Source: Opitutaceae bacterium EW11
GTDB taxonomy: Bacteria; Verrucomicrobiota; Verrucomicrobiia; Opitutales; Opitutaceae
Reading direction: 5' to 3'
DNA: 64,000 nt
NCBI GenBank assembly: GCA_003054665.1
Contig: QAYY01000001.1
Span: 857,501-921,500 of the forward strand
The translations under genes were made by a program, and so were the position numbers. A model generated the notes under the pieces. The model was given only the letters and a program-made list of their open reading frames with translations, did not search any database and was not told the origin of the DNA. Of this stretch, positions 8,319 through 21,049 are shown one piece after another. Within the stretch, counting starts at the first letter, position 1. Every line of letters begins with the position of its first letter.

Positions 8319-10376
8319 ATGAAATTCCCGGTCGGCATTGCCTTTCGCTCGCTGGTCGAACGACGCCATGGCGGCGTGATGCTCTTCGTGTGCCTGTTTG
8401 TCGGAGTCGCGACCCTCACCCGGATCGCGCTCCTGCTCAAAGCGGCGCACTCGGTGAGCTTCGACTCAAGCCTGCTGGCCTCCTTCGGGTGGGGCCTCCT
8501 CTACGATCTCGGCGCCGCGCTGCTCTTCTCGATGCCGGCGACGCTCGCCCTGGCGGTCCTGCCCGCGGGTTTCTTCGACCGGCTCTGGGCCCGGTTTCTG
8601 GCCCAGGCATTCCTCTTTTTTGCGGTCGGCCTGCTCCTCTTCGGAGCGATCGCCGAATGGCTGTTCTGGGACGAGTTCAGCGCGCGTTTCAATTTCATCG
8701 CGGTCGACTATCTCGTCTACACGACCGAAGTGGTGGCCAACATCCGGGAATCGTACCCGATGCCGTGGATTTTCGCCGGTATCCTGACGGGGGCCGCGGT
8801 GATCTATGGTCTGCTCGCCCGCACAGGCTGGATCGGCCGCTGGCTCGACGACGCCCACGAACCGGCCCGTGCCCGCTGGCGCACGGGCTTCGGCTGGATC
8901 GCGGCCGCGGTCATCGCAGGCTTCGCCCTCAACGCGGACCAGCTCCCGTCTTTCGCCAACAACTACAACCGCGAGCTGGCCAAAGACGGAGTCTGGTCAC
9001 TCTTCGCCGCGTTCAGGAACAACGAACTCGAGTACGACCAGTTCTACACCACGCTGCCGCCCGACCGGGCTTTCCAGACGCTGCACCGGGAATTCGCCCA
9101 TGACGGCAGCACGCCCCTCGCCGGCGCGGCGCACGACACCCTGCGTCTCATCCGCAGCGAAGGGCCCGAATTCCACCCGAACATCATCCAGGTCACGGTT
9201 GAAAGCCTGAGCGCGGAGTTCCTCTCCATCTTCGATCCGAAGTCGACGCTCACGCCCAACCTCGAGGAGATCGCCCGCAAGAGCCTGGTGTTCGACAACC
9301 TCTTCGCCACGGGCACGCGCACCGACCGCGGCATGGAGGCGCTCACGCTCTCCCTTCCGCCGACCCCCGGCCGCTCGCTGGTCAAACGGCCGCGCAACGA
9401 AAACCTCTTCACGCTCGGCTCGGTGCTCCGCAGCCGCGGCTACGACACCGCCTTCGTGTACGGCGGCTACGGATACTTCGACAACATGAACTATTTCTTC
9501 GGCCACAATGGCTATCGCATTGTGGACCGCGCCTCGGTGGACGCGAAGGACATCACCTTCGCCAACGCCTGGGGCGCCTGCGACGAGGACCTGTTCCGCT
9601 GGGCGCTTCGCGACGCCGACGCCACGTACGCGAAGGGAAAGCCGTTCTTCCAGTTCATCATGACGACGTCGAACCACCGGCCCTTCACGTTTCCCGACGG
9701 GCGGATCGACCTGCCGTCGAAGACCTCGGGCCGGTCCGGCGGCGTGAAATACACCGACTACGCCATCGGCAAGCTGATCCGGGACGCGGAGAGCAAGCCG
9801 TGGTTCAAGAACACCGTCTTCGTCATCGTCGCCGACCACTGCGCCGAGGTCGCCGGCAAAACCGAACTGCCGGTGCAGAACTACCATATTCCGCTGATCA
9901 TCTACGCGCCGGGCGGCCAGCTGCCCACCGGCCGGGTGCCGGATCTGATGAGCCAGGTGGACTACGCGCCGACCCTCCTCGGACTGCTCAACTGGAGCTA
10001 CGCCTCCCGGTTCTACGGCTGGGACGTGCGCAAGTCCAAGGGCGAGCGCCGGGCGCTGATCGGCAATTACCAGCGCCTCGGGCTCTACGAGGACAAACTG
10101 CTCACCGTGTTGCGCCCGGTGCGCGGCGTTTCCCAGCTCCGCTACGAATCGCTGAAAGCTCCGCCGGTGCTCGTGCCGCCCGAACCCGCCACCGTCGACC
10201 GCGCCGTCGCCTACTACCAGACCGCCAGCATCCTGTATGGGAACGGCGGCTACCGCGAACTCTCCCCGGATGAACAGAAACGTTACCTGAGCCAGGCGGA
10301 TCGGACGCCCCAGGATCGCCGCCCGGAGGAACTGGCGGCCGCCCCGAGCCTTCCCGCCGGCTCGCCCGCCCCATGA
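8319..10376 (+). CDS. LtaS/MdoB-like membrane sulfatase-fold phosphoglycerol (or phosphoethanolamine) transferase
   Basis: The product is 685 residues. About five transmembrane helices occupy residues 1-205, followed by an extracytoplasmic alkaline-phosphatase/sulfatase-fold domain. The nucleophile Thr is expected at residue 335 in GTRTDRG, equivalent to the catalytic Thr of LtaS. Other family signatures are VESLSAEF, the histidine segment FIMTTSNHRPF and the metal site IVADHCAEVAG. In a Gram-negative cell such enzymes modify periplasmic glucans, lipids or other envelope polymers rather than making teichoic acid. Its last four bases form an ATGA overlap with the next gene, so it leads an envelope operon. 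The donor and acceptor are unknown. Confidence 0.85.
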   Translation: MKFPVGIAFRSLVERRHGGVMLFVCLFVGVATLTRIALLLKAAHSVSFDSSLLASFGWGLLYDLGAALLFSMPATLALAVLPAGFFDRLWARFLAQAFLFFAVGLLLFGAIAEWLFWDEFSARFNFIAVDYLVYTTEVVANIRESYPMPWIFAGILTGAAVIYGLLARTGWIGRWLDDAHEPARARWRTGFGWIAAAVIAGFALNADQLPSFANNYNRELAKDGVWSLFAAFRNNELEYDQFYTTLPPDRAFQTLHREFAHDGSTPLAGAAHDTLRLIRSEGPEFHPNIIQVTVESLSAEFLSIFDPKSTLTPNLEEIARKSLVFDNLFATGTRTDRGMEALTLSLPPTPGRSLVKRPRNENLFTLGSVLRSRGYDTAFVYGGYGYFDNMNYFFGHNGYRIVDRASVDAKDITFANAWGACDEDLFRWALRDADATYAKGKPFFQFIMTTSNHRPFTFPDGRIDLPSKTSGRSGGVKYTDYAIGKLIRDAESKPWFKNTVFVIVADHCAEVAGKTELPVQNYHIPLIIYAPGGQLPTGRVPDLMSQVDYAPTLLGLLNWSYASRFYGWDVRKSKGERRALIGNYQRLGLYEDKLLTVLRPVRGVSQLRYESLKAPPVLVPPEPATVDRAVAYYQTASILYGNGGYRELSPDEQKRYLSQADRTPQDRRPEELAAAPSLPAGSPAP

Positions 10377-11242: not shown

Positions 11243-12024
11243 CTTTCGCCTCCTCCTCCCAACGCAATCCGCTCGACCGGACTCTCTGGGCCGTCATCGG
11301 CCTCCTGATCGCAGCGCTCGCGGTGTTCGAACTCACCGGGGTCGATCTCTGGCTGCAGGACTTCTTCTACAATCCCGCGGCTCATCGCTGGCTCGTCGAC
11401 CCCGCGTGGTATTGGCCGCGGATGATTTTCTACCAGGGCGCGAAGGGCGTGATCATCGCCTTCGGCGTCGGCATGCTCGTCGTCGCGGCGGGCCCCAGAC
11501 GCTGGCGCGCGTTTTTCGGCGTGCCCGCGGACGGCCGGAAGGATCTTTGGATCGCGTTCCTCACCCTCGCCTCCGTGCCGGCGCTGATCGGCTACGGCAA
11601 GGCGACGACCAACGTCTTCTGCCCGTATGATATCGAGCGATACGGCGGCGACGTGCCGTACGTGAGGGTTTTCGAGCGTTATCCGGAAGGCCGCCGCCCC
11701 GAGCGCCAGGGACGTTGTTTCCCCGCAGGTCACGCCAGCGGCGGCTTCGCGCTGCTCGCGCTCGCCGGACTCGGGCGCACGCGCCGCGGACGCTGGCTCG
11801 GCGCCGGAATCGGCCTGCTCGCCGGCTGGTGGATGGGGCTCTACCAGATGCTGAAGGGCGCGCACTACCTCAGCCACACGGTCGTCACGATGCTCGTGGC
11901 CTGGATCGTTTTCCTCTGCTGGCGCGCGCTGTTCGACCGCCTTTCCCGCTTTTCCAGATCGGCCCGACCTGCCGACACCGACGCGACCGAAACCGAAGAG
12001 AAACTCGTTTCAGAAAACCCATGA
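11239..12024 (+). CDS. PAP2-family membrane phosphatase
   Basis: This 261-residue integral membrane protein has about six helices. It carries the PAP2 (type 2 phosphatidic acid phosphatase) motifs: a CPYDIERYGGD segment, then GRCFPAGHASGG (the PSGH-like motif with catalytic His) and KGAHYLSHTVVTM, which holds the second catalytic His. These enzymes remove phosphate from lipid phosphates or polyprenyl diphosphates at the membrane. The start at 11239 overlaps the preceding stop (ATGA), and the C-terminal stop overlaps the yceI start. PAP2 proteins of this subtype often accompany LtaS-like transferases, where they may recycle the lipid by-product; the substrate here is inferred. Confidence 0.85.
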   Translation: MTFASSSQRNPLDRTLWAVIGLLIAALAVFELTGVDLWLQDFFYNPAAHRWLVDPAWYWPRMIFYQGAKGVIIAFGVGMLVVAAGPRRWRAFFGVPADGRKDLWIAFLTLASVPALIGYGKATTNVFCPYDIERYGGDVPYVRVFERYPEGRRPERQGRCFPAGHASGGFALLALAGLGRTRRGRWLGAGIGLLAGWWMGLYQMLKGAHYLSHTVVTMLVAWIVFLCWRALFDRLSRFSRSARPADTDATETEEKLVSENP

Positions 12025-12581
12025 AGAAGATCCTGATTGCCCTCGCAATCGCCGGGCTCGGCCTCTGCGTCCGCGCAGCTGAAAGCCCCGTTTCCATCGA
12101 CCCGCAGCACTCTCGCATCGAGTTCGACGTGAAAGCCACGATGCACGGTTTCACCGGCAAGGTGGAGGCGTACAAAACCGACATCATCGCCGATCCCGCC
12201 AGCGGCCTCGTCACGAAAGCGCAGGTCCAGGTGAAGTTCGCCGACCTCAAGACGGGCGACACCAAACGCGATCGCGAGATGCTCGAATGGGAGCAGGTCG
12301 ACCAGTTCCCCGAGGTCCTCTATACGATGACGAAGCTGGATTCGCTCGGCGGCGGAAAATACACCGCGCACGGGCAGCTGATCCTCCATGGGGTGACGAA
12401 GGAGATCGCTTTTCCGGTCACCATCGCGACGGCCGACAAGACCACGTATTCCATCGACGGCGAGACCAACCTCGACACCCACGACTACAACCTGCCGACG
12501 ATCCGGAAATTCGGCATGCTGAAGGTCAACCCGGTCGTGCGCGTCTTTTTCCATCTCCAGGGCTCAGCCGCCGTAAAATAA
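12021..12581 (+). CDS. YceI-family periplasmic lipocalin-like protein
   Basis: This 186-residue protein begins with a signal peptide (MKKILIALAIAGLGLCVRA). The mature domain shows the YceI pattern: SPVSIDPQHSRIEFDVKATMHGF, then a middle DLKTGDTKRDREM and GQLILHGVTKEIAFPV. The family folds as a lipocalin-like barrel, and characterised members bind long isoprenoid chains. Its position after PAP2 and immediately before a polyprenyl diphosphate synthase fits isoprenoid binding or handling. The start overlaps the PAP2 stop (ATGA). The ligand is not visible from sequence. Confidence 0.9.
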   Translation: MKKILIALAIAGLGLCVRAAESPVSIDPQHSRIEFDVKATMHGFTGKVEAYKTDIIADPASGLVTKAQVQVKFADLKTGDTKRDREMLEWEQVDQFPEVLYTMTKLDSLGGGKYTAHGQLILHGVTKEIAFPVTIATADKTTYSIDGETNLDTHDYNLPTIRKFGMLKVNPVVRVFFHLQGSAAVK

Positions 12582-12603: not shown

Positions 12604-13503
12604 ATGCCCTCGCCAGAATCCGTCCGCCTCCGCAAGGCCCTGAGGGAGCACGCCCCGATCTCGCCGCGCACGGAGCCCGCGCTCCGCGCCGCGATCGAGT
12701 ACGTTTTGTCTGCACCGGGGAGCCTCTCTCGCGCCCAACTCGTCATGGCGGCCGGACGCGCTCACGGCCTGCCCGCCTCCGAAGTGGAGCAGCTCGCCTG
12801 CGCGGTGGAGTATTACCACGTCGCCTCGCTCATCATGGACGACCTTCCGTGCATGGACGACGCCGACACCCGGCGAGGCCAGCCCAGCCTGCACCGCGCC
12901 CACGGCCAGGCGACGGCACTGCTCACCTCCCTCGCACTGGTCAACCGGGCCTACTCGCTCGTCGCGTTCACGTTTGCGCCGCACCCGGTGATCGCCCGGA
13001 TGCAGGCGCAAAGCGTGCTCGACGGCTGCCTCGGGACCACGGGCATCCTCGACGGCCAGGCGCGCGACCTGAACTTCGCCGCTTCGCCCCGCGCGATCAC
13101 GGAGGCGTCCCGCGTGGCGCTGGGCAAGACCGTCAGCCTGTTTTCGCTCGCGGTCTTCCTGCCGGCGCTGCTCGTCGATCCGGATCCCCGCGAACGCGCG
13201 CAGCTCAAGGCGCTATGCGTGTATTGGGGATTGGCCTACCAGGCGCTCGACGATCTGCGCGACGTGCTCTCTCACCCGACAGAGATCGGGAAACCGACGC
13301 AGCGCGACCGTGAGCTCGCGCGGCCCAACCTGGCCTGCCTCTCCGGAGTCGCCTTCGCCCAGCGGCGTCTGCGCCGGCTGCTCGGCCAGGCTGAGCGCGC
13401 GGCCGGCCGTCTCGCCGGCTGGAATCCCCGCTGGTCCTACCTGCAGGCGTTCCAGCAGGCGGTATTCGACGGCGCCGCCCGCGAGGCGCTCGCCGCGGCC
13501 TGA
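12604..13503 (+). CDS. Polyprenyl (farnesyl/geranylgeranyl-type) diphosphate synthase
   Basis: The product is 299 residues of the IspA/isoprenyl synthase fold. The first Asp-rich motif is MDDLPCMDDADTRRG, with four residues between the Asp pairs as in bacterial FPP synthases. The second Asp-rich motif is QALDDLRDV. The LDGQARDLNF segment and a Lys-containing GKTVSLF are also typical. It condenses isopentenyl diphosphate with an allylic diphosphate in the cytosol. Product length cannot be read with confidence. It lies 22 bp after yceI and 11 bp before the ABC permease, so it is probably in the same transcript. Confidence 0.88.
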   Translation: MPSPESVRLRKALREHAPISPRTEPALRAAIEYVLSAPGSLSRAQLVMAAGRAHGLPASEVEQLACAVEYYHVASLIMDDLPCMDDADTRRGQPSLHRAHGQATALLTSLALVNRAYSLVAFTFAPHPVIARMQAQSVLDGCLGTTGILDGQARDLNFAASPRAITEASRVALGKTVSLFSLAVFLPALLVDPDPRERAQLKALCVYWGLAYQALDDLRDVLSHPTEIGKPTQRDRELARPNLACLSGVAFAQRRLRRLLGQAERAAGRLAGWNPRWSYLQAFQQAVFDGAAREALAAA

Positions 13504-13514
13504 TCGAAAGAAGC

Positions 13515-14627
13515 ATGCGTTTTCTCCGGCTTGTCCCCACCAACCTCCGACGGCATCGGATCCGCGCCCTGATCGGGGTCGCGGGCATCGCGTTCGGCGT
13601 CGCCGCAATGCTGACGATCCTGGCGATCGTCACCGGGGCGATCGGGATGTTCGAACGAATCCTCGCCACCGACAGCCACTTTCTCGTTTTCGAGCGCAAC
13701 GTCTCCGACCTGTTCTTCAGCTCCGTCAGCACCGAACAAGTCGCCGCCGTGCGCGCGCTGCCTCAGGTCGACACCGCGCACCCGCTGCTCTTCGGCATCG
13801 TCTCCTCTCCCGGACATCCGATCATCACCTGCTTTGGCGTCGAGCCGGACGACCCGCGCCTGGCGAAAGCCGAGTGGCGCTCCGGCAGCCGGGCCGAATT
13901 CGGCGCGAAACCGGGCGAGATTTTTCTCGGCTCCCGGGCCGCCGAGTTTCTCGGAGCCCAAGCCGGTGAGGAGATCGAGATCGGTCGCGCGCACTTCCGC
14001 GTCGGGGGCATTTTCAAGACGGAAAACGGCTTCGAGGACGGCGGCGTGTTCCTGCCCCTGGCCGCCGCCCAGGAGTTCTTTCATCGCGAGGGCCTCTCGT
14101 CCGTCGTGGCGGTGAAACTACGGCACCGCGATCAGGGCGGCGCCTTCAAGGCGGCGGTCGAGGCGAAATACCCGGGACTCATCGCTCTCGAAAACCGGGA
14201 GTTCAACCAGAGCTACACCCAGTTCCGGATCCTGCATTTCACCGCCTGGGCCGTGGGCATCTGCGCATTCCTGCTCGGCGGCCTCGGCGTGGCGAACACG
14301 ATGCTGCTGTCGGTTTTCAGCCGGATCCGTGAGATCGCGATTCTCCGGGTGTGCGGTTTTTCCTCCCGGCAGGTCGCGGCGCTGATCTTCACGGAGGCGG
14401 CTTCGATCGCCGCAGCCGGCCTGGCGATCGGATTCCTGATCGGACTGGTCGTGCTGGTCTCGCTGCAAAACGTGCCGCAGTTCCACGGCTATATCCAAGT
14501 GACAATCCAGCCCGGCATCGTCGTCGGCATCATCGGCACGGCCCTGCTCACGGCGATCGCCGGCGCCGTTTACCCGGCCCAGTACGCGTCCCGTATCCAA
14601 CCGGCGGAGGCGCTGCGCTATGAATGA
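13515..14627 (+). CDS. ABC transporter permease, FtsX/MacB/LolC type
   Basis: The product is 370 residues with one N-terminal helix (about 20-45), an extracytoplasmic domain of about 190 residues, and three C-terminal helices. The FtsX-domain signature GVANTMLLSVFSRIREIAILRVCGFS is present. Such permeases couple ATP hydrolysis inside to mechanical transfer of lipoproteins, lipids or peptides across the periplasm. The next gene encodes its ATPase and the reading frames overlap by 8 bp. The setting beside prenyl, PAP2 and YceI genes suggests an envelope substrate, but the true substrate is unknown. Confidence 0.88.
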   Translation: MRFLRLVPTNLRRHRIRALIGVAGIAFGVAAMLTILAIVTGAIGMFERILATDSHFLVFERNVSDLFFSSVSTEQVAAVRALPQVDTAHPLLFGIVSSPGHPIITCFGVEPDDPRLAKAEWRSGSRAEFGAKPGEIFLGSRAAEFLGAQAGEEIEIGRAHFRVGGIFKTENGFEDGGVFLPLAAAQEFFHREGLSSVVAVKLRHRDQGGAFKAAVEAKYPGLIALENREFNQSYTQFRILHFTAWAVGICAFLLGGLGVANTMLLSVFSRIREIAILRVCGFSSRQVAALIFTEAASIAAAGLAIGFLIGLVVLVSLQNVPQFHGYIQVTIQPGIVVGIIGTALLTAIAGAVYPAQYASRIQPAEALRYE

Positions 14628-15336
14628 CACGTCCCCGACGCCCGGCAATGGCGGCGCCAAGCTGCGCAAAAACGATCTCGTCGCCTGGGCGGATGAGGTC
14701 TGGAAATCCTACGACGGCGGCCGCATCGGCGTGCTTCAGGGCGCCAGCCTCGAGGTACGTCCCGGGCAGATGGTCGCGCTCTGGGGACCATCCGGCTCGG
14801 GCAAGAGCACGCTGCTTCACCTGCTCGGCGGCCTCGACGTCCCCGACCGGGGCGACCTCAGCGTCTGCGGCCTCGACCCCCGCAAGGAAGCCGACCGGCT
14901 CATGCTTCGCCGCAAGCACCTCGGCTTCGTGTTCCAGCTTCACAACCTCATTCCGGATCTCACCGTCGAGGAGAACCTGCACGTGCCCGCTCTCGCCGTC
15001 GGCCGGCCGCGGGGCGAATCCGCGGAACGCATTCGCGAGCTGACGGAGAAAGTCGGGCTCGGCCACCGCCTGGGCCACCGCATTCAAGATCTCTCCGGCG
15101 GCGAACGCCAGCGCACGGCGATCTGCCGGGCGTTGATGAATTCGCCGGGGCTGATTCTCGCCGACGAGCCGACCGGTTCGCTCGACGAAAAGACGGGCGA
15201 GACGGTTTTCGCCCTCCTGCGCAGCCTCGCCGAACGGGAGGGCATTGCGGTGGTTCTCGCGACGCACGAACGCCGCTTCGCCGAAGCCTGCAACCACATC
15301 CTCCGGGTTCGCGAAGGCAGGTTGTCGGAAGTGTGA
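14620..15336 (+). CDS. ABC transporter ATPase, LolD/MacB type
   Basis: This 238-residue ATPase pairs with the upstream FtsX-type permease. Walker A is GPSGSGKST at residues 56-64, the signature LSGGERQR begins at residue 158, and Walker B LILADEPTGSLD has its Asp-Glu pair at 182-183. A switch histidine follows in LATHERR. Length and motifs fit the LolD subfamily. It overlaps the permease gene by 8 bp, and the CcoN-like gene begins 31 bp downstream, so transcription may continue into the oxidase-like genes. Confidence 0.92.
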   Translation: MNDTSPTPGNGGAKLRKNDLVAWADEVWKSYDGGRIGVLQGASLEVRPGQMVALWGPSGSGKSTLLHLLGGLDVPDRGDLSVCGLDPRKEADRLMLRRKHLGFVFQLHNLIPDLTVEENLHVPALAVGRPRGESAERIRELTEKVGLGHRLGHRIQDLSGGERQRTAICRALMNSPGLILADEPTGSLDEKTGETVFALLRSLAEREGIAVVLATHERRFAEACNHILRVREGRLSEV

Positions 15337-15367: not shown

Positions 15368-16684
15368 ATGAGGGAATCCAACAGGGCGCGATGGCGCGAG
15401 TCGGTGCGGCTTCATGCGCTGCTCTGGCTGGCGCTCGCGAATCTGGTCGGCGTGCTGCTCGCGGCGGAGCTCGTCTGGCCGCAGATCGGCGACTGGCTCG
15501 AGCCGTTTTCGTACGGTCGCTGGTCGCCGCTCCACCTCGATTGGCAGCTCTACGGCTGGTGCTCGCTTCCCCTCGTCGGGATGTTGATGGCGGGATTCGA
15601 ACCCGAGCGCGCCGCACGTCCCGCCGTCCCCCTGCACGACCGTCTGTTTCGCGCCGCTCTGATCGCCTGGTCGGTCGCCTTGTTTCTCAGCGGCATCGGC
15701 TGGCTCGGGGGCCACAACAGCGGGAAACTTTTTCTCGAATGGTCCGGCCCGGCGGTGCTCGCCTTGCCCGCCGCGATGTCGCTCCTCTGGTTCGCCCTCG
15801 CGGTATCCGCCTGGCAAGGACGGGCCCGGAGCGGCGTGGCGACCTGGGCGCGCTTCGGCGCGCTCGTGCTGCTCGCCGCCGTTCCGGCTTCCATCGCATG
15901 GGCTGCGGGCCCGTCGGTATATCCCGCGGTGAATCCCGACAGCGGCGGCGCCACCGGCACGAGCCTGCTCGGTTCGACGCTCGGGATCGTCGCCGTCTTT
16001 GGCGCCGCCCCGCTCCTGCTGCGCGTCGAACAGACGTCGCGAACGGCGTTTCGTGTCTACTGGATCTTCTGGGCGGTCGAGGGCGTGGTCTTCGGCTTGG
16101 TGAACCACCACAACGCCTCGCACCATGCCGTTTCACAGGTGCTCGCGCTCGGTTCTCTCGCCGGTTGGATCCCGCTCGCGTGGTTCGCGTTTCGCGGTTT
16201 CCGGTGGAGCGACGGCGCCCGACCCTGGCTCCTCGCGGCGTTTGCCTGGTGGGCGCTGCTGATCCTCACCGGCTGGACGACGTTTCTTCCCGGTGTCTCG
16301 GAGCGCCTGAAATTCACCAACGCGCTCGTCGCCCACGCGCATCTCGCGATGGCGGGTCTGGTGACCAGTTTCCACATCGCACTGCTGAACCAACTGCTCC
16401 CGGCATCTCCGCTTCGCCGCGGCTTCGGAGCCTGGCAGGCCGCCTGCGCGACGTACGTGCTCAGCATGGGAATCCTCGGCTGGACCGAAGCCGAGCACGC
16501 CGACGAGTTGTTCCGAAGCGAACCGTGGACACAGGCTTTGCTCGGCCTGCGCCTGGCGGCAGGCCTGGTCATGGCAATCGTGTCGGCTCGCTGGTTTGTG
16601 CAGGCAGCAGGCGCTTGCTCGCGTCGCGCGGCTCTGCATGATGGTCAGCGACTTGCCTCTGCCCTGCCCCGCTTCGAACCATGA
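15368..16684 (+). CDS. CcoN-like haem-copper oxidase subunit I homologue lacking a full CuB site
   Basis: This 438-residue membrane protein has about 12 hydrophobic segments and aligns by eye with cbb3 oxidase subunit CcoN. The low-spin haem ligand of helix 2 is kept (His56 in GRWSPLHLDWQLYGW), the two adjacent histidines of helix 7 are kept (His247-His248 in NHHNASHH), and the HxH of helix 10 is kept (His323, His325 in VAHAHLAMAGL). The helix-6 His, which in CcoN is a CuB ligand cross-linked to Tyr, is missing: no His occurs between the GGHNSGK segment and His247. The Tyr six residues before the first His of the pair is Val here. It is therefore unlikely to be a standard O2-reducing oxidase. 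It is followed by a small membrane protein and a cytochrome c fusion. I know of no characterised member. Confidence 0.72.
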   Translation: MRESNRARWRESVRLHALLWLALANLVGVLLAAELVWPQIGDWLEPFSYGRWSPLHLDWQLYGWCSLPLVGMLMAGFEPERAARPAVPLHDRLFRAALIAWSVALFLSGIGWLGGHNSGKLFLEWSGPAVLALPAAMSLLWFALAVSAWQGRARSGVATWARFGALVLLAAVPASIAWAAGPSVYPAVNPDSGGATGTSLLGSTLGIVAVFGAAPLLLRVEQTSRTAFRVYWIFWAVEGVVFGLVNHHNASHHAVSQVLALGSLAGWIPLAWFAFRGFRWSDGARPWLLAAFAWWALLILTGWTTFLPGVSERLKFTNALVAHAHLAMAGLVTSFHIALLNQLLPASPLRRGFGAWQAACATYVLSMGILGWTEAEHADELFRSEPWTQALLGLRLAAGLVMAIVSARWFVQAAGACSRRAALHDGQRLASALPRFEP

Positions 16685-17091
16685 ACGTCGTTCGACTGTC
16701 TCGCTGGCTCGCGTTGTTTGCAGGCGCGATGGATTTCTGCACCGGTTTGCTCCTGATCGGGGCGCCCGGATTCGCGCTCGATCTCATGCGCGTGCCACCG
16801 GTCTCGCTCGGCGAAACCGTGTACCTGCGCTGGGTGGGTGCCTTCGTCGCGGCCGTCGGCGCCACTTACCTGTGGGCCTTCTTTCGAGCGGGGCTTCTGC
16901 GTCTCCGTTTCACGCTGGAGCTGACCCTATTTTTCCGGCTCGCCGCCGGCAGTTATTCGGCCTGGGCGATCTTCCAGGGCGCGCTCAATTCCGCCTGGTG
17001 GACCGTGCCGGTCACGGACTTCCTTCTCTTCGCGGTGCAACTCGGCCTGTTGAAGTTCCTGCCTTCCCGTGATGAGTCCCTCCAGCCCTGA
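16681..17091 (+). CDS. Small four-helix membrane protein, hypothetical
   Basis: This 136-residue protein has four hydrophobic segments (about residues 8-32, 48-66, 75-97 and 105-125) and a short charged C-terminus. No cofactor motif is visible. It overlaps the CcoN-like gene by an ATGA and overlaps the downstream fusion gene by about 20 bp, so it is part of the same unit. It may be an assembly factor or small subunit of that complex. I do not recognise a family. Confidence 0.7.
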   Translation: MNVVRLSRWLALFAGAMDFCTGLLLIGAPGFALDLMRVPPVSLGETVYLRWVGAFVAAVGATYLWAFFRAGLLRLRFTLELTLFFRLAAGSYSAWAIFQGALNSAWWTVPVTDFLLFAVQLGLLKFLPSRDESLQP

Positions 17092-18976
17092 GTCGCAATC
17101 GACGGCCTCCGACGTGTCCCCGGCCGGGGTGGAGGTGCGCGGGCCCTTTGCGCTGGCGTCGGCAATCGCCGCGGTCGCGGCGCTGTACGTTCATTTTTTG
17201 ATCTTCGGCGAATTCGCCTTCCTCGAAGTGGTGCGCGTGGCGGTCCCGGCGGGCGCGCTGCCCAAGGTTCTGAGTGCGCTTGGTGCCGGCGGCATCGGGG
17301 GAAGCGTGCTCTGCGCCGTGCTGCTGCGGGCACGGATCGGGCGCTGGGTCACCCTCGCGGGGTTCGCCGGCTGCGCGGCGTCCGCCCTCTGGGCGATGCA
17401 CCTGGACTCGGTCATGTCCGCCGTGCTGGCGGCGGGCCTTTCGGGGCTGACGCTCGGCGTCACGACCGTGGGCCTGGCAATGTGCCTGCGGCCGACGGTT
17501 CACCTCAGTCGTCTCGGGCTGACCTGCGGCGCCGGCACCGGAATCGCCTATGGAATCTGCAATCTTCCGGCGGTGTTCAGCGCCCCTCCTCGTATCCAGA
17601 TTGCCATTGCGTTCTTCGCTTCGGTCGCCGGGCTCGTCGCCGCCCTGGGCCTGGCTTCGAACACCCATCACCACTCCGACGCGACCGACTACAAGCCGCG
17701 CGCGATCGCGGTGTGGATCCTGGTTTTTCTCACGCTCGTGTGGCTCGACTCCGCGGCGTTCTACGTCATCCAGCACACGGAGTACCTGAAATCGAACACC
17801 TGGGAAGGTTCGCTGGCGCTCGTCGGCAACGCTTTCGTGCACCTGCTCGCGGCCGTGCTGGCCGGCGTCGCCCTGGACCGACGCCGTTTCGGGCCGACGG
17901 CGATCACCGCGGCGGTCTGTCTTGTCGTGGCCTGCCTGATCATCGCCGGTTCGGCCCGCCACGCCGCGCTGGCGCGGGTGCTCTACATGACCGGCGTTTC
18001 GCTCTACTCGACGGCGCTCGTGTATTTCCCCGCCCGAAGCGGACGCCGCTGGGTGGCCGCCGGACTCTACGCCATCTCCGGCTGGATCGGTTCGGCGATC
18101 GGCATCGGCATAGCGGAAAACCTCCACCGGATTCCGGCCTGGACCGTCGCCGTCGCCGCGCTCCTCCTGACCGGCGCGTTTGCGCTTCGCCGCCGGGCGC
18201 GCGGCCCGGAAGGCGTGGGAATCCTGTTCGGCGCGGCGGTTCTGTTCGTCTTCGCCGCTCCCGGCAGTTCGGCCGGAATTCCGGATCCGGCTCCGGCGCC
18301 GGAGGAGTTCGGCCGCCGCGTCTACGTCGACGAGGGCTGCATGTACTGCCATTCGCAATACGTCCGGCCGTCCACGGACGACGTGATCAAATGGGGACCG
18401 GCGGAGCCTCTCGCGCACCGGCTCGAAGAAAAACCCCCGCTCTTCGGCAACCGCAGGCAGGGTCCGGATCTTTCCGAAGTCGGCACGCGCCGCACGTCCG
18501 AGTGGAACGAAGCGCACCTCGAGGCTCCACGGGCCATCAGCCCCGGCTCGCGCATGCCCAGCTACGCCTACCTGTTTCGTCCCGGCGATCCGCGCGGGCC
18601 CGCCCTGCTTGCTTACCTGTCGTCGCTCGGCCGGGACGTCTGGCCGGAGCGTCTGGCGATCGTCGACCGATGGAAGCCGGACCCTGCCGCGACCGTCTTG
18701 CCGCCGGACCGGCAGGCTCGGCTGTTCTCCAAAGTCTGCGCGCAGTGCCACGGCCCGGACGGGCGGGGCGACGGTCCGGCGGCCCGGAAACTGCAGCTGA
18801 AGCCGGCAAACCTGCACGAGCCCTGGAAGCGGGTCGACCCGGCGAACGAAGCCGTTTCGCTCGCCCGAATCGCCAAATTCGGCGTGCCCGGCACCGCGAT
18901 GGCGGGCCACGAAACCCTCACCGATTCGGAGGTTTTATCGCTGGTCGCTTATTTGGAAACGCTGCACCGTAGCTGA
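17072..18976 (+). CDS. Polytopic (MFS-like) membrane domain fused to CcoO-like and a second cytochrome c domain
   Basis: The product is 634 residues. Residues 1 to about 400 form 12 or more membrane helices with an MFS-like look, including a cytoplasmic-type loop with THHHSD. The next domain closely resembles the soluble part of CcoO: GRRVYVDEGCMYCHSQYVRP has the haem motif C423-M-Y-C426-H427, followed by GPDLSEVG, SEWNEAHL and the Met-ligand region SRMPSYAY. A second CcoP-like domain has C556-A-Q-C559-H560 and ends near a TAMAGH Met. The start is ATG 17072 (an in-frame GTG sits three bases upstream). The CcoN-like gene and a small membrane gene precede it, and a response regulator follows 46 bp downstream. 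A transporter-like domain joined to oxidase cytochromes is unusual. Function is unknown; electron delivery to the CcoN-like subunit is likely. Confidence 0.78.
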   Translation: MSPSSPESQSTASDVSPAGVEVRGPFALASAIAAVAALYVHFLIFGEFAFLEVVRVAVPAGALPKVLSALGAGGIGGSVLCAVLLRARIGRWVTLAGFAGCAASALWAMHLDSVMSAVLAAGLSGLTLGVTTVGLAMCLRPTVHLSRLGLTCGAGTGIAYGICNLPAVFSAPPRIQIAIAFFASVAGLVAALGLASNTHHHSDATDYKPRAIAVWILVFLTLVWLDSAAFYVIQHTEYLKSNTWEGSLALVGNAFVHLLAAVLAGVALDRRRFGPTAITAAVCLVVACLIIAGSARHAALARVLYMTGVSLYSTALVYFPARSGRRWVAAGLYAISGWIGSAIGIGIAENLHRIPAWTVAVAALLLTGAFALRRRARGPEGVGILFGAAVLFVFAAPGSSAGIPDPAPAPEEFGRRVYVDEGCMYCHSQYVRPSTDDVIKWGPAEPLAHRLEEKPPLFGNRRQGPDLSEVGTRRTSEWNEAHLEAPRAISPGSRMPSYAYLFRPGDPRGPALLAYLSSLGRDVWPERLAIVDRWKPDPAATVLPPDRQARLFSKVCAQCHGPDGRGDGPAARKLQLKPANLHEPWKRVDPANEAVSLARIAKFGVPGTAMAGHETLTDSEVLSLVAYLETLHRS

Positions 18977-19022: not shown

Positions 19023-19688
19023 ATGCGAGCACTCATTGTCGAAGACGAACGCAAGGTCGGCCAGTTCGTGGAACGGGCCCTCAGCGAACAGAGCTACAGC
19101 ACGCGCCTGGTCCGCACGATCGCGGAGGCAAAAGACGCGCTCGCCGAGGCGCCGTACGACGTCGTGATCCTGGACCTGGGCCTGCCCGACGGCGACGGCC
19201 TCGATCTGTTGCGAGAATGGCGCCGGAACCGTTTCCTCGAGCCCGTCATCATTCTCAGCGCCCGCGACGCCGTGGCGGACCGGATCCAGGGCCTGAACCT
19301 CGGCGCGGACGATTACCTGCCCAAACCGTTTTCCATCGACGAACTGCTCGCGCGCATCCGCTCCGTGGTGCGCCGGCAGAGCGGGGCGAAAAGCACGGTG
19401 CTCTCCCACGGCGCCATCCGCCTCGACCTCCTCGGCCGCGTCGCGACGCTCAACGGCAACCCCGTCGAACTCACCAGCCGCGAATTCGCGCTGCTCGAGC
19501 TTTTCCTGCAGAATCCCGGTCGCGTTCTCACCAGAACCCTCATTTCCGAGAAAGTCTGGGAAGCCTGCTACGACCTGGAGACGAACCTGATCGACGTGTA
19601 CGTCCGCCGCCTCCGCAAGAAATTCGAAACCTCGCCGGAACGACCCCTGATCAAAACCGTGCGCGGCACCGGCTACCAACTGGTATGA
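19023..19688 (+). CDS. OmpR/PhoB-type response regulator
   Basis: This 221-residue two-domain regulator has an N-terminal receiver with the acidic pair VEDE at 7-10, phosphoacceptor Asp51 in VVILDLGLPDGDG, and the Lys in YLPKPFS. The C-terminal winged helix contains LTSREFALLELF and ends with the family signature KTVRGTGYQLV. It overlaps the histidine kinase start by ATGA and lies 46 bp after the MFS-cytochrome fusion. The closest look is to CusR/CopR-type regulators, so a copper or redox signal is a reasonable guess, not shown by sequence. Confidence 0.93.
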   Translation: MRALIVEDERKVGQFVERALSEQSYSTRLVRTIAEAKDALAEAPYDVVILDLGLPDGDGLDLLREWRRNRFLEPVIILSARDAVADRIQGLNLGADDYLPKPFSIDELLARIRSVVRRQSGAKSTVLSHGAIRLDLLGRVATLNGNPVELTSREFALLELFLQNPGRVLTRTLISEKVWEACYDLETNLIDVYVRRLRKKFETSPERPLIKTVRGTGYQLV

Positions 19689-21049
19689 CCTCCATCTCGC
19701 TCCGCGTCACGCTGGCGTTCGCCGCCGTCGTGACCGCCACCACCGCGGCGCTCCTTGTATTGGGAGGCTGGATGCTTTCTCGGCAGATGGTGCGGGGCAT
19801 CGATTTTCTGAACGAGGCCGAATTCGTCGAACTCAAGGACCGTCTCGGCGACCAGCCCGATGCCCTGACCCCCGACTCGATCAAGGCGAAGATCGGAAAT
19901 CATCTGATCATCGACGCCTCGCTCTACTACTGCCAGGTGCACGACTCGAAGGGAAACGTGCTCTTCCGCTCGGCCAACCTCGACGGCTCCTATCTACCGA
20001 TCGCGCTCACCCTCAGGCGGCAGGATCGCACGGTTGCGGTGAAGGAAATCGGCGACCTTCGCCTCTCGGACCTTCCGCTCGGACCGCTGAACGTCCAGAT
20101 CGCAAGCTCGCTGGAGGCCACGCGCCGCCTGCTCACGGACTACTATCGGGTGAGCGGCATCCTCCTGGTCTGCGCCGCCGCCGCGAGCCTCGGAATCGGC
20201 TACGGTTTCGCGCGGTTCACGCTGCGGCCGGTGAGGCTCATCACCGAAACCGCACGCCGCATCAGCGCGGCCAACCTGAGCGAACGGATCCCGGATGCGG
20301 GGAGGAGCGACGAAATCAGCCGGCTTGCTCGGCTGCTCAACGAAATGTTCGACCGGCTGGAACTGTCCTTCCAGCAGGTGCAACGCTTCAGCGCCGACGC
20401 GTCCCACGAGCTCAAGACCCCCCTTTCTCTCATCCAGCTCAATGCCGAGAAGCTGCGCGCCCAGGTGGCCTCCGACCCCGTCGCCACCGCGGCGGTGGAG
20501 GACCTGCTCGTCGAGATCGACCGGCTTCACCAGATCCTGGAGACGCTCTTGTTCATCGCCAAGGCCGAGGGCGGCGTGCTGCCGATCGACCGGCGCTTCG
20601 AGCTGCTGGAACGATTCGTCGACAGCTTCGCCGAGGATGCGCGGGTGCTGGCGGAAGATTCAGGCGTCCGGTTCGAGGTGGCGCGCAACGACCACGCGGA
20701 AATCAGCATCGAGCCCAATCTCATCCGGCAACTCCTGCTCAACCTGGTGACCAACGCCGTGCACGTCTCGCCGCCCGGGGGGACGATCGTCCTGTCCTCG
20801 CAGGCCGAAGACAGCCGTTGGACCTTGAGCGTCGCCGACGAAGGCCCGGGACTTCCCGCCGACCAGCTGGAACGCGTATTCGAACGGTTCGTACGCATCG
20901 AGCGCCCCGGGGCGACGGCACGCCGCGGTCACGGCCTCGGTCTCGCCATCTGCCGCAGCATCGCCGACCTCCACAACGGTCGCATCTACGCTCAAAACCG
21001 GCCCGACCGCTCCGGTTTGATCGTGACGGTGGAGTTGCCGCGTCGATAG
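19685..21049 (+). CDS. Sensor histidine kinase (CusS/QseC-like architecture)
   Basis: The product is 454 residues. There are two membrane helices (about 8-30 and 155-180) enclosing a periplasmic domain of about 125 residues, then HAMP, the H-box FSADASHELKTPLS with phosphoacceptor His241, and an HATPase domain with NLVTNAVH, a DEGPGLP G1 box and RGHGLGLAIC. It is the kinase partner of the overlapping response regulator. The periplasmic domain has no Met- or His-rich copper motif that I can see, so the signal is open. The frame from 19217 is an extension artefact. Confidence 0.92.
   Translation: MTSISLRVTLAFAAVVTATTAALLVLGGWMLSRQMVRGIDFLNEAEFVELKDRLGDQPDALTPDSIKAKIGNHLIIDASLYYCQVHDSKGNVLFRSANLDGSYLPIALTLRRQDRTVAVKEIGDLRLSDLPLGPLNVQIASSLEATRRLLTDYYRVSGILLVCAAAASLGIGYGFARFTLRPVRLITETARRISAANLSERIPDAGRSDEISRLARLLNEMFDRLELSFQQVQRFSADASHELKTPLSLIQLNAEKLRAQVASDPVATAAVEDLLVEIDRLHQILETLLFIAKAEGGVLPIDRRFELLERFVDSFAEDARVLAEDSGVRFEVARNDHAEISIEPNLIRQLLLNLVTNAVHVSPPGGTIVLSSQAEDSRWTLSVADEGPGLPADQLERVFERFVRIERPGATARRGHGLGLAICRSIADLHNGRIYAQNRPDRSGLIVTVELPRR

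Follow-up and report, generated by a model that had tools for sequence, protein, structure and literature searches.

In a stretch of 64,000 nucleotides from Opitutaceae bacterium EW11, a member of the Verrucomicrobiota (GenBank assembly GCA_003054665.1, contig QAYY01000001.1, positions 857,501 to 921,500 of the forward strand; hereafter the window), one uninterrupted open frame (17072..18976) encodes a protein of 634 amino acids in which a major facilitator superfamily (MFS) transporter fold is joined to a CcoO-like haem-c domain and a further cytochrome c domain. Beside it lies the gene of a diverged CcoN homologue without a CuB site (15368..16684; hereafter CcoN*), identified by an AlphaFold2 model, by structural comparison with VIA-align and by an alignment of 64 members. 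These genes belong to a recurrent cluster, whose genes in the window, between 12021 and 21049, are all on the plus strand. The anatomy of the fusion, of CcoN* and of the cluster is well supported by comparison of the sequences, and it is proposed that the system probably serves the transfer of electrons or cargo within the cell envelope, and not O2 respiration.

The haem-c half of the fusion, numbered like the rest of the protein from its ATG, begins with a CcoO/FixO-like domain (residues 411-503, 18302..18580; Pfam FixO 1.3e-27) which holds a CxxCH motif at 423-427 within the CcoO-like sequence CHSQYVRP, together with M495; it is a mono-haem domain of the CxxCHSQxxRP type with a Met ligand, as in CcoO. 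The second cytochrome c domain (residues 546-631, 18707..18964; CxxCH 556-560, M610) is recognized by Pfam Cytochrom_C and Cytochrome_CBB3, the Cytochrom_C match (3.4e-14) having its best stretch at residues 549-631. Relatives were collected by scanning genome contigs with an alignment of the MFS domain, which did find them, whereas the single window protein used as query found nothing; the best 80 of 153 relatives were kept and are referred to as named loci. In an alignment of 64 fusions, which leaves out those four of the 67 fused named loci whose frame lacks the second cytochrome c domain, C423, C426, H427, M495, C556, C559 and H560 are invariant and M610 is kept in 63. By analogy with CcoO and cytochrome c, M495 and M610 may be the axial haem ligands. 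The protein does not qualify as a full-length CcoO (TIGR00781, 91.1 bits against a cut-off of 200.65) and its best NCBIfam match is NF011054, "bifunctional cbb3 subunit II/cytochrome c" (6.2e-30; 104.7 bits, below the cut-off of 447). Judged from these matches, the C-terminal half alone is of a known two-haem kind, and the novelty would lie in the MFS domain placed in front of it.

The membrane domain gave little to family searches and was assigned by alignment and structure. Residues 1-413 of the window protein match no Pfam family at E up to 1 and NCBIfam gives the domain no family name either, while Pfam MFS_1 matched 4 of 32 aligned members (best 1.9e-07); the family alignment A1 is made of 31 of the 55 available family MFS rows plus the window, length limits having excluded 3 of 60 MFS rows and 1 of 38 CcoN rows. 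A profile search of Protein Data Bank (PDB) sequences with the N-terminal domain returned monocarboxylate transporter 1 (E 0.0036). In the AlphaFold2 model of the fusion (63 homologues as input; mean predicted local distance difference test score, pLDDT, 88.1; predicted template modelling score, pTM, 0.75), twelve helices over residues 25-377 (17144..18202) form the two-lobe fold of MFS proteins. Across the 50 entries listed by VIA-align, which cover about residues 11-381, Z ranged from 29.9 to 27.6, the closest being SV2A (Z 29.9, root mean square deviation 4.1, 352 residues aligned), followed by MCT8 (Z 29.6) and NorA (Z 29.2); going by their names, we take all 50 to be MFS transporters. The matches to SV2A, MCT8 and NorA name no substrate for the domain.

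The MFS fold is followed by a 13th hydrophobic segment at about residues 383-402 (18218..18277), an anchor of the CcoO type seen in hydropathy and as a helix at 383-395 modelled at a low pLDDT of about 60. Its best mean hydropathy over 17 residues ranges from 0.99 to 2.55 across the 64 aligned members, and it would make the number of membrane crossings odd, as needed for periplasmic haem c. In L100 and L120 this segment ends by eye in an AxA-like motif, where signal peptidase might release the cytochrome part. Within the MFS domain N164, D226, S227, Q234, W244, H257, Y305, S310, Y312 and S313 are invariant in the 64 fusions, and 13 chosen positions, mostly polar, do not vary among the 36 fused and 5 split proteins of the window's family. 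Of the 15 MFS-only proteins without CcoN*, between 11 and 15 share the residue at any one of these positions; the MFS-only rows L065, L075, L090 and L093 are clearly degenerate, with several polar residues lost. The original prediction, which was made from the letters of the window, had described a single open frame without a stop, haem-c motifs at C423xxC426H427 and C556xxC559H560, the first of them in a CcoO-like stretch, and about twelve N-terminal membrane helices. Frame and motifs are exactly where it put them, and the structure prediction that it proposed bears out a 12-helix MFS fold, although the 13th segment had been overlooked.

MFS and CcoO share one frame in 67 of the 80 named loci, while 3 are split and 10 have no detected CcoO (two of these, L163 and L171, are cut by a contig end). 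The fused loci include many of Verrucomicrobiota and, among Acidobacteriota, those of the isolates Terriglobus roseus, Edaphobacter modestus, Acidipila rosea and Occallatibacter savannae; others come from metagenome-assembled genomes (MAGs) placed in Thermoanaerobaculia, Bdellovibrionales and Deltaproteobacteria by the MAG label only. Counting MFS-only forms, the MFS domain was matched in 70 of the 252 genomes scanned in the window's family and in 13 of 240 genomes drawn evenly from the phylum. A family set of 60 loci comprises 35 fused, 5 split and 20 without CcoO at the same locus; it overlaps with the named loci in organisms (e.g., L042/L099 and L073/L119), so the counts are not additive. 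A sequencing frameshift or an assembly join of two genes was considered, as split genes do exist in some relatives; nevertheless, the fusion recurs in 67 of 80 named loci, some of them from isolates, which rules out such an artefact and leaves it a negligible probability. The survey of relatives that had been suggested together with the fusion claim thus returned a conserved fusion, shared by the two phyla.

Eight split loci were inspected and in all of them the MFS gene stops after helix 12 and the CcoO gene follows directly, most of these CcoO genes beginning with a hydrophobic segment of their own. This layout implies that the loss of one stop between neighbours, or the reverse event, explains the fused and split states. 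In a tree of 102 MFS domains, built by a quick method with support from the Shimodaira-Hasegawa-like approximate likelihood ratio test (SH-aLRT) only and with no root inferred, 16 MFS-only rows sit among fused ones and need 7 changes; they are inside one well-supported clade of 54 and several adjoin a histidine operon. The simplest reading of this unrooted tree, in which the direction is unproved, is that some lineages shed the oxidase part and retained the transporter. At L052 the MFS-only gene is divergent from hisG of the histidine operon (gene names by eye), a layout also seen in L043, L051, L053, L061, L064, L068, L074, L079 and L083. MFS-only genes at the his locus are mostly followed by a gene for a sulfatase-family membrane protein, and the window encodes a sulfatase-family protein at 8319-10376 whose relatives follow many of them; this gene is therefore common to the two contexts of the MFS domain, that of the window and that of the his locus.

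Of the fused named loci, 61 extend more than 2.2 kb upstream, and in 60 of these CcoN* is encoded directly before the fusion. Its relationship with Pfam COX1 is weak in the window protein (8.9e-05, under the cut-off), COX1 being matched in 12 of 26 CcoN* members (alignment A2, 25 of 37 CcoN rows plus the window), and none of these 26 matched a cytochrome b561 family in Pfam. The AlphaFold2 model, on the other hand, has the full fold of haem-copper oxidase subunit I (pLDDT 93.2, pTM 0.93), with VIA-align Z scores of 29.0, 28.8 and 28.5 to the cbb3 CcoN structures 9g6b, 8smr and 3mk7 and of 28.1 to the c-type nitric oxide reductase 4xyd. For comparison of the ligands, CcoN* was aligned by profile with 15 canonical CcoN of relatives, each of which has the ligand motifs (E 3.3e-07 for the global and 3e-05 for the local alignment), and counts were taken from 64 CcoN*, four of the 67 matches having been left out as shorter than 1000 bases. 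The helix II His falls on H56 (64/64) and the helix X pair on H323 (64/64) and H325 (46/64), and the window protein has all three of these haem-ligand residues; which of them binds which haem is presumably as in cbb3 oxidases.

The catalytic copper site shows a different picture. The column of the helix VI CuB His, position 198, is occupied by A in 48, T in 7 (T198 in the window), S in 6, H in 2 and M in 1 of the 64 sequences; the helix VII HH columns, 248 and 249, hold His in 3 and 10; and the helix VII Tyr column, 242, holds Tyr in 7 (F242 in the window). All three CuB His occur together in none of the 64: L113 and L151 have H198 with G248, and the window protein keeps H248 only. The register of helix VI depends on the alignment, as a profile alignment with PDB sequences set the His column a few residues later, and any His within residues 185-215 is found in only 8 of the 64. 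Seven CcoN* of the split-gene lineage (L087, L089, L091, L092, L094, L113 and L151) carry a helix VI His without the helix VII HH, and their sequences may preserve an intermediate state. The 18 CcoN* without H325 consist of L116 and of 17 with E202 in helix VI (L129, L139, L144-L146, L153, L157-L161, L166-L168, L170, L173 and L174), a residue found in none of the 47 others; the E202 set corresponds to the Acidobacteriota rows except Thermoanaerobaculia, L139 being placed there by tree grouping. Loss of H325 and gain of E202 thus go together at the haem site in the Acidobacteriota branch. H252, conserved in 59 of 64, aligns with no canonical haem-copper oxidase ligand. Outside this locus the genome of the window encodes oxidase subunit I five more times, once within a canonical CcoN-CcoO frame at C27, and a second CcoN/CcoO-like pair was observed at G000:C1:123948-126004 (L002, L199; frames of 513 and 339 amino acids). 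An apparent CcoN-MFS fusion in L163 and L172 was discarded, the intervening frame being a low-complexity shadow of the small gene that lies in another frame.

That small gene (16681..17091) overlaps those of CcoN* and of the fusion and encodes a small hydrophobic protein, whose alignment (A5) comprises 21 of 60 matches plus the window, 22 members in total. Neighbours were counted in 43 loci with long flanks, accepting matches at any position of a locus with E no higher than 1e-6, or 1e-4 for the small hydrophobic protein, which was found in 38. Upstream of CcoN* the window encodes a YceI lipocalin (12021..12581; Pfam YceI 7.2e-22; 38/43 loci), whose N terminus resembles by eye a signal peptide, a polyprenyl synthetase with two Asp-rich motifs (12604..13503; PF00348, 8.7e-38; 40/43), a permease of the MacB/FtsX type (13515..14627; MacB_PCD 4.7e-20, FtsX 4.5e-17; 41/43) and the ATPase of a MacB-type ATP-binding cassette (ABC) transporter (14620..15336; ABC_tran 2e-33; 40/43). 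Downstream of the fusion are an OmpR-type response regulator (19023..19688) and a sensor histidine kinase (19685..21049), both identified with Pfam and each with a similar gene in 26 of the 43 loci, which is weaker evidence of conservation because these are common families. The positions of the matches show a recurrent order, and by Pfam Terriglobus roseus carries the same gene set. Two DDxx(xx)D motifs are present in 54 of 55 complete synthetase copies of the named loci and the synthetase of the cluster is one of three in the window genome, suggesting that it is probably dedicated to this system. Nine named loci without CcoN* whose sequence reaches over 6 kb upstream of the MFS match served as an internal control; none of them has the synthetase and one has YceI. 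In L111, L131 and L162 the synthetase lies just before CcoN* and no MacB/ABC gene was detected. Two further observations concern Acidobacteria: in the MAG loci L160, L166 and L167 CcoN* and the small hydrophobic protein share a single open frame, which may be another fusion of cluster genes, and in Terriglobus roseus a small protein encoded between the regulator and the synthetase (L153:2836-3300) has weak matches, below the cut-off, to PepSY-TM and cytochrome b561.

The haem-copper oxidase fold and haem ligands of CcoN*, the lack of the CuB set and the presence of two haem-c sites suggest electron transfer without O2 reduction, and the isoprenoid synthetase and the YceI lipocalin suggest a redox partner for such a complex. 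A related arrangement has been described in Burkholderia and other Gram-negatives, in which the YceI lipocalin BcnA is tied to the cytochrome b561 LcoA; YceI lipocalins carry octaprenyl compounds or ubiquinone-8, and LcoA is presumed to re-reduce the quinone bound to BcnA, so quenching lipid peroxyl radicals (PMC9113575). In that system YceI is genetically tied, and sometimes fused, to a membrane haem b protein (PMC9113575). The cluster described here is alike in that a YceI gene is linked, in 38 of the 43 loci, to a membrane protein with predicted haem b ligands; unlike LcoA, however, this partner has a haem-copper oxidase fold and c-type subunits, and an MFS domain, a polyprenyl synthetase and an ABC transporter are encoded with it.

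Based on these data, it can be hypothesized, with a probability of about 45%, that the fusion is the transporter and cytochrome subunit of an oxidase-derived envelope complex which no longer reduces O2 and serves isoprenoid redox chemistry together with YceI. The fusion, through its MFS and cytochrome parts, would form one complex with CcoN*, and electrons would pass among the haem b of CcoN*, the haem c of CcoO and the outer cytochrome c. Such a complex would act on a prenylquinone-like isoprenoid, reducing or oxidising it; the polyprenyl synthetase would help to make this molecule and the periplasmic YceI lipocalin would carry it, so that, by analogy, CcoN* and the fusion would take the role of LcoA with a transporter built in. 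The MFS domain may be active in transport, with a small molecule or ion from the isoprenoid pathway as its substrate, and the fusion would hold it beside the redox centres. In this scheme we infer the cargo, the direction of the electrons and the coupling of transport to redox chemistry. It is also conceivable, though doubtful, that the protein is a redox-driven or redox-gated transporter, in which electron flow via haem b, CcoO and cytochrome c of an oxidase-derived complex without its former oxygen chemistry would power or control the MFS carrier and an isoprenoid redox cargo would be delivered to the periplasmic lipocalin.

Several observations weigh against the proposal of an isoprenoid redox complex derived from an oxidase. 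Its isoprenoid link is drawn from the gene neighbourhood only, and no synthetase was detected in 3 and no YceI in 5 of the 43 loci. In the family set CcoN* is present in 31 of the 35 fused loci, the four others being near a contig end (L042 and L059) or at the his locus (L072 and L073), and 4 of the 67 fused named loci have a frame that lacks the second cytochrome c domain. In addition, two of the 64 CcoN* retain a His at the position of the helix VI CuB ligand, and such a His is visible in the lineage with split MFS and CcoO genes; H325, the expected second ligand of the low-spin haem b, is lost in 18 of the 64, nearly all from Acidobacteriota.

Other explanations have to be weighed against the same data. 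Proteins of the MFS are tied to cbb3 oxidases in the case of the copper importers CcoA/CalT, whose copper motifs are MxxxM in transmembrane helix (TM) 7 and HxxxM in TM8 (PMC6362234). In the fusions, in contrast, each of these motifs is present in 0 of 64 sequences, which lends no support to a copper importer of the CcoA type, and this reading was rejected; accordingly, of the suggestion in the original prediction that one polypeptide joins metal or solute transport with electron transfer, the union of a transporter fold with CcoO and cytochrome c stands and copper import of this type does not. A broader precedent is MamZ of magnetotactic bacteria, in which an MFS domain and a YedZ-like redox domain of the membrane form one protein; it has a relative that consists of the MFS part only (MamH) and a c-type cytochrome as partner (MamX) (PMC3905215). 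By analogy with MamZ/MamX/MamH, the fusion could be a redox-coupled iron or copper transporter in which the cytochromes set the redox state of the metal moved by the MFS domain, and the existence of both fused and MFS-only forms recalls the MamZ/MamH system; nonetheless, besides the missing CcoA motifs, no metal-handling gene is among the counted conserved neighbours, which include isoprenoid, lipid-type ABC and lipocalin genes instead, and a metal transporter is considered unlikely. Less credit still is given to a general quinol:cytochrome c oxidoreductase, in which CcoN* would oxidise quinol, the fused cytochromes would feed the oxidases and the MFS domain would be incidental: the haem-ligand His of CcoN*, the CcoO haem c and the outer cytochrome c make a plausible chain, in a haem-copper oxidase fold without the CuB ligand set, but the polyprenyl synthetase, YceI and MacB genes would be left unexplained, as would the patchy spread (70 of 252 family and 13 of 240 phylum genomes).

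The MFS domain is tied to CcoO in most loci and directly precedes the separate anchor segment, as might be expected if it were only a membrane anchor or assembly scaffold, devoid of transport. CcoO retains, however, an anchor segment of its own, and the MFS domain stands alone in 16 of the 102 tree rows, among fused ones, most of which keep the polar residues; an anchor alone is thus an improbable role. The alternative put forward with the discovery of the frame, that of a transporter-shaped anchor for an oxidase-like complex, survives in its second half, since an oxidase-like partner is indeed encoded next door, and is weakened in its first by the MFS-only relatives with conserved polar residues. 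The CHSQYVRP motif and the CcoN fold are kept, as in a functional cbb3-type oxygen reductase whose CcoO has been decorated, and as in cbb3 CcoN/CcoO and the NF011054 proteins a CcoO-like haem c and a cytochrome c adjoin a CcoN fold. The present system differs from these in the MFS domain in front and in a CcoN* without the CuB set; the CuB columns 198, 248 and 249 and the Tyr column 242 are mostly replaced, and the genome possesses, apart from four further genes for oxidase subunit I, a canonical CcoN-CcoO frame, so that a functional oxidase is highly improbable here.

In the literature available under open licence in PubMed Central, no description was found of an MFS::CcoO::cytochrome c protein, of CcoN* or of this cluster. 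The statement of the original prediction that no protein of this architecture had been described is to that extent sustained, with two qualifications, namely that the C-terminal half matches NF011054 and that MamZ, compared by its described architecture, is the nearest architectural precedent, which means that an MFS domain joined to a redox domain is not unheard of. MamZ differs in its C-terminal domain, which is YedZ-like, in place of the FixO and Cytochrom_C domains of the window protein, and belongs to a magnetosome operon for which CcoN, YceI and polyprenyl synthetase are not mentioned in the consulted part of that report (PMC3905215).

Altogether, the evidence points to an envelope system that is conserved in Verrucomicrobiota and Acidobacteriota and of which our searches found no description; in it a haem-copper subunit seems to have lost its catalytic copper and to have become linked with a transporter, a lipocalin and an isoprenoid enzyme. 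CcoO/FixO matches in such genomes need not signify an oxidase. If the proposed complex is real, the oxidase fold would have a use besides O2 reduction, and Terriglobus roseus and Edaphobacter modestus would allow a direct test of the coupling of electron transfer to transport or to lipid protection.

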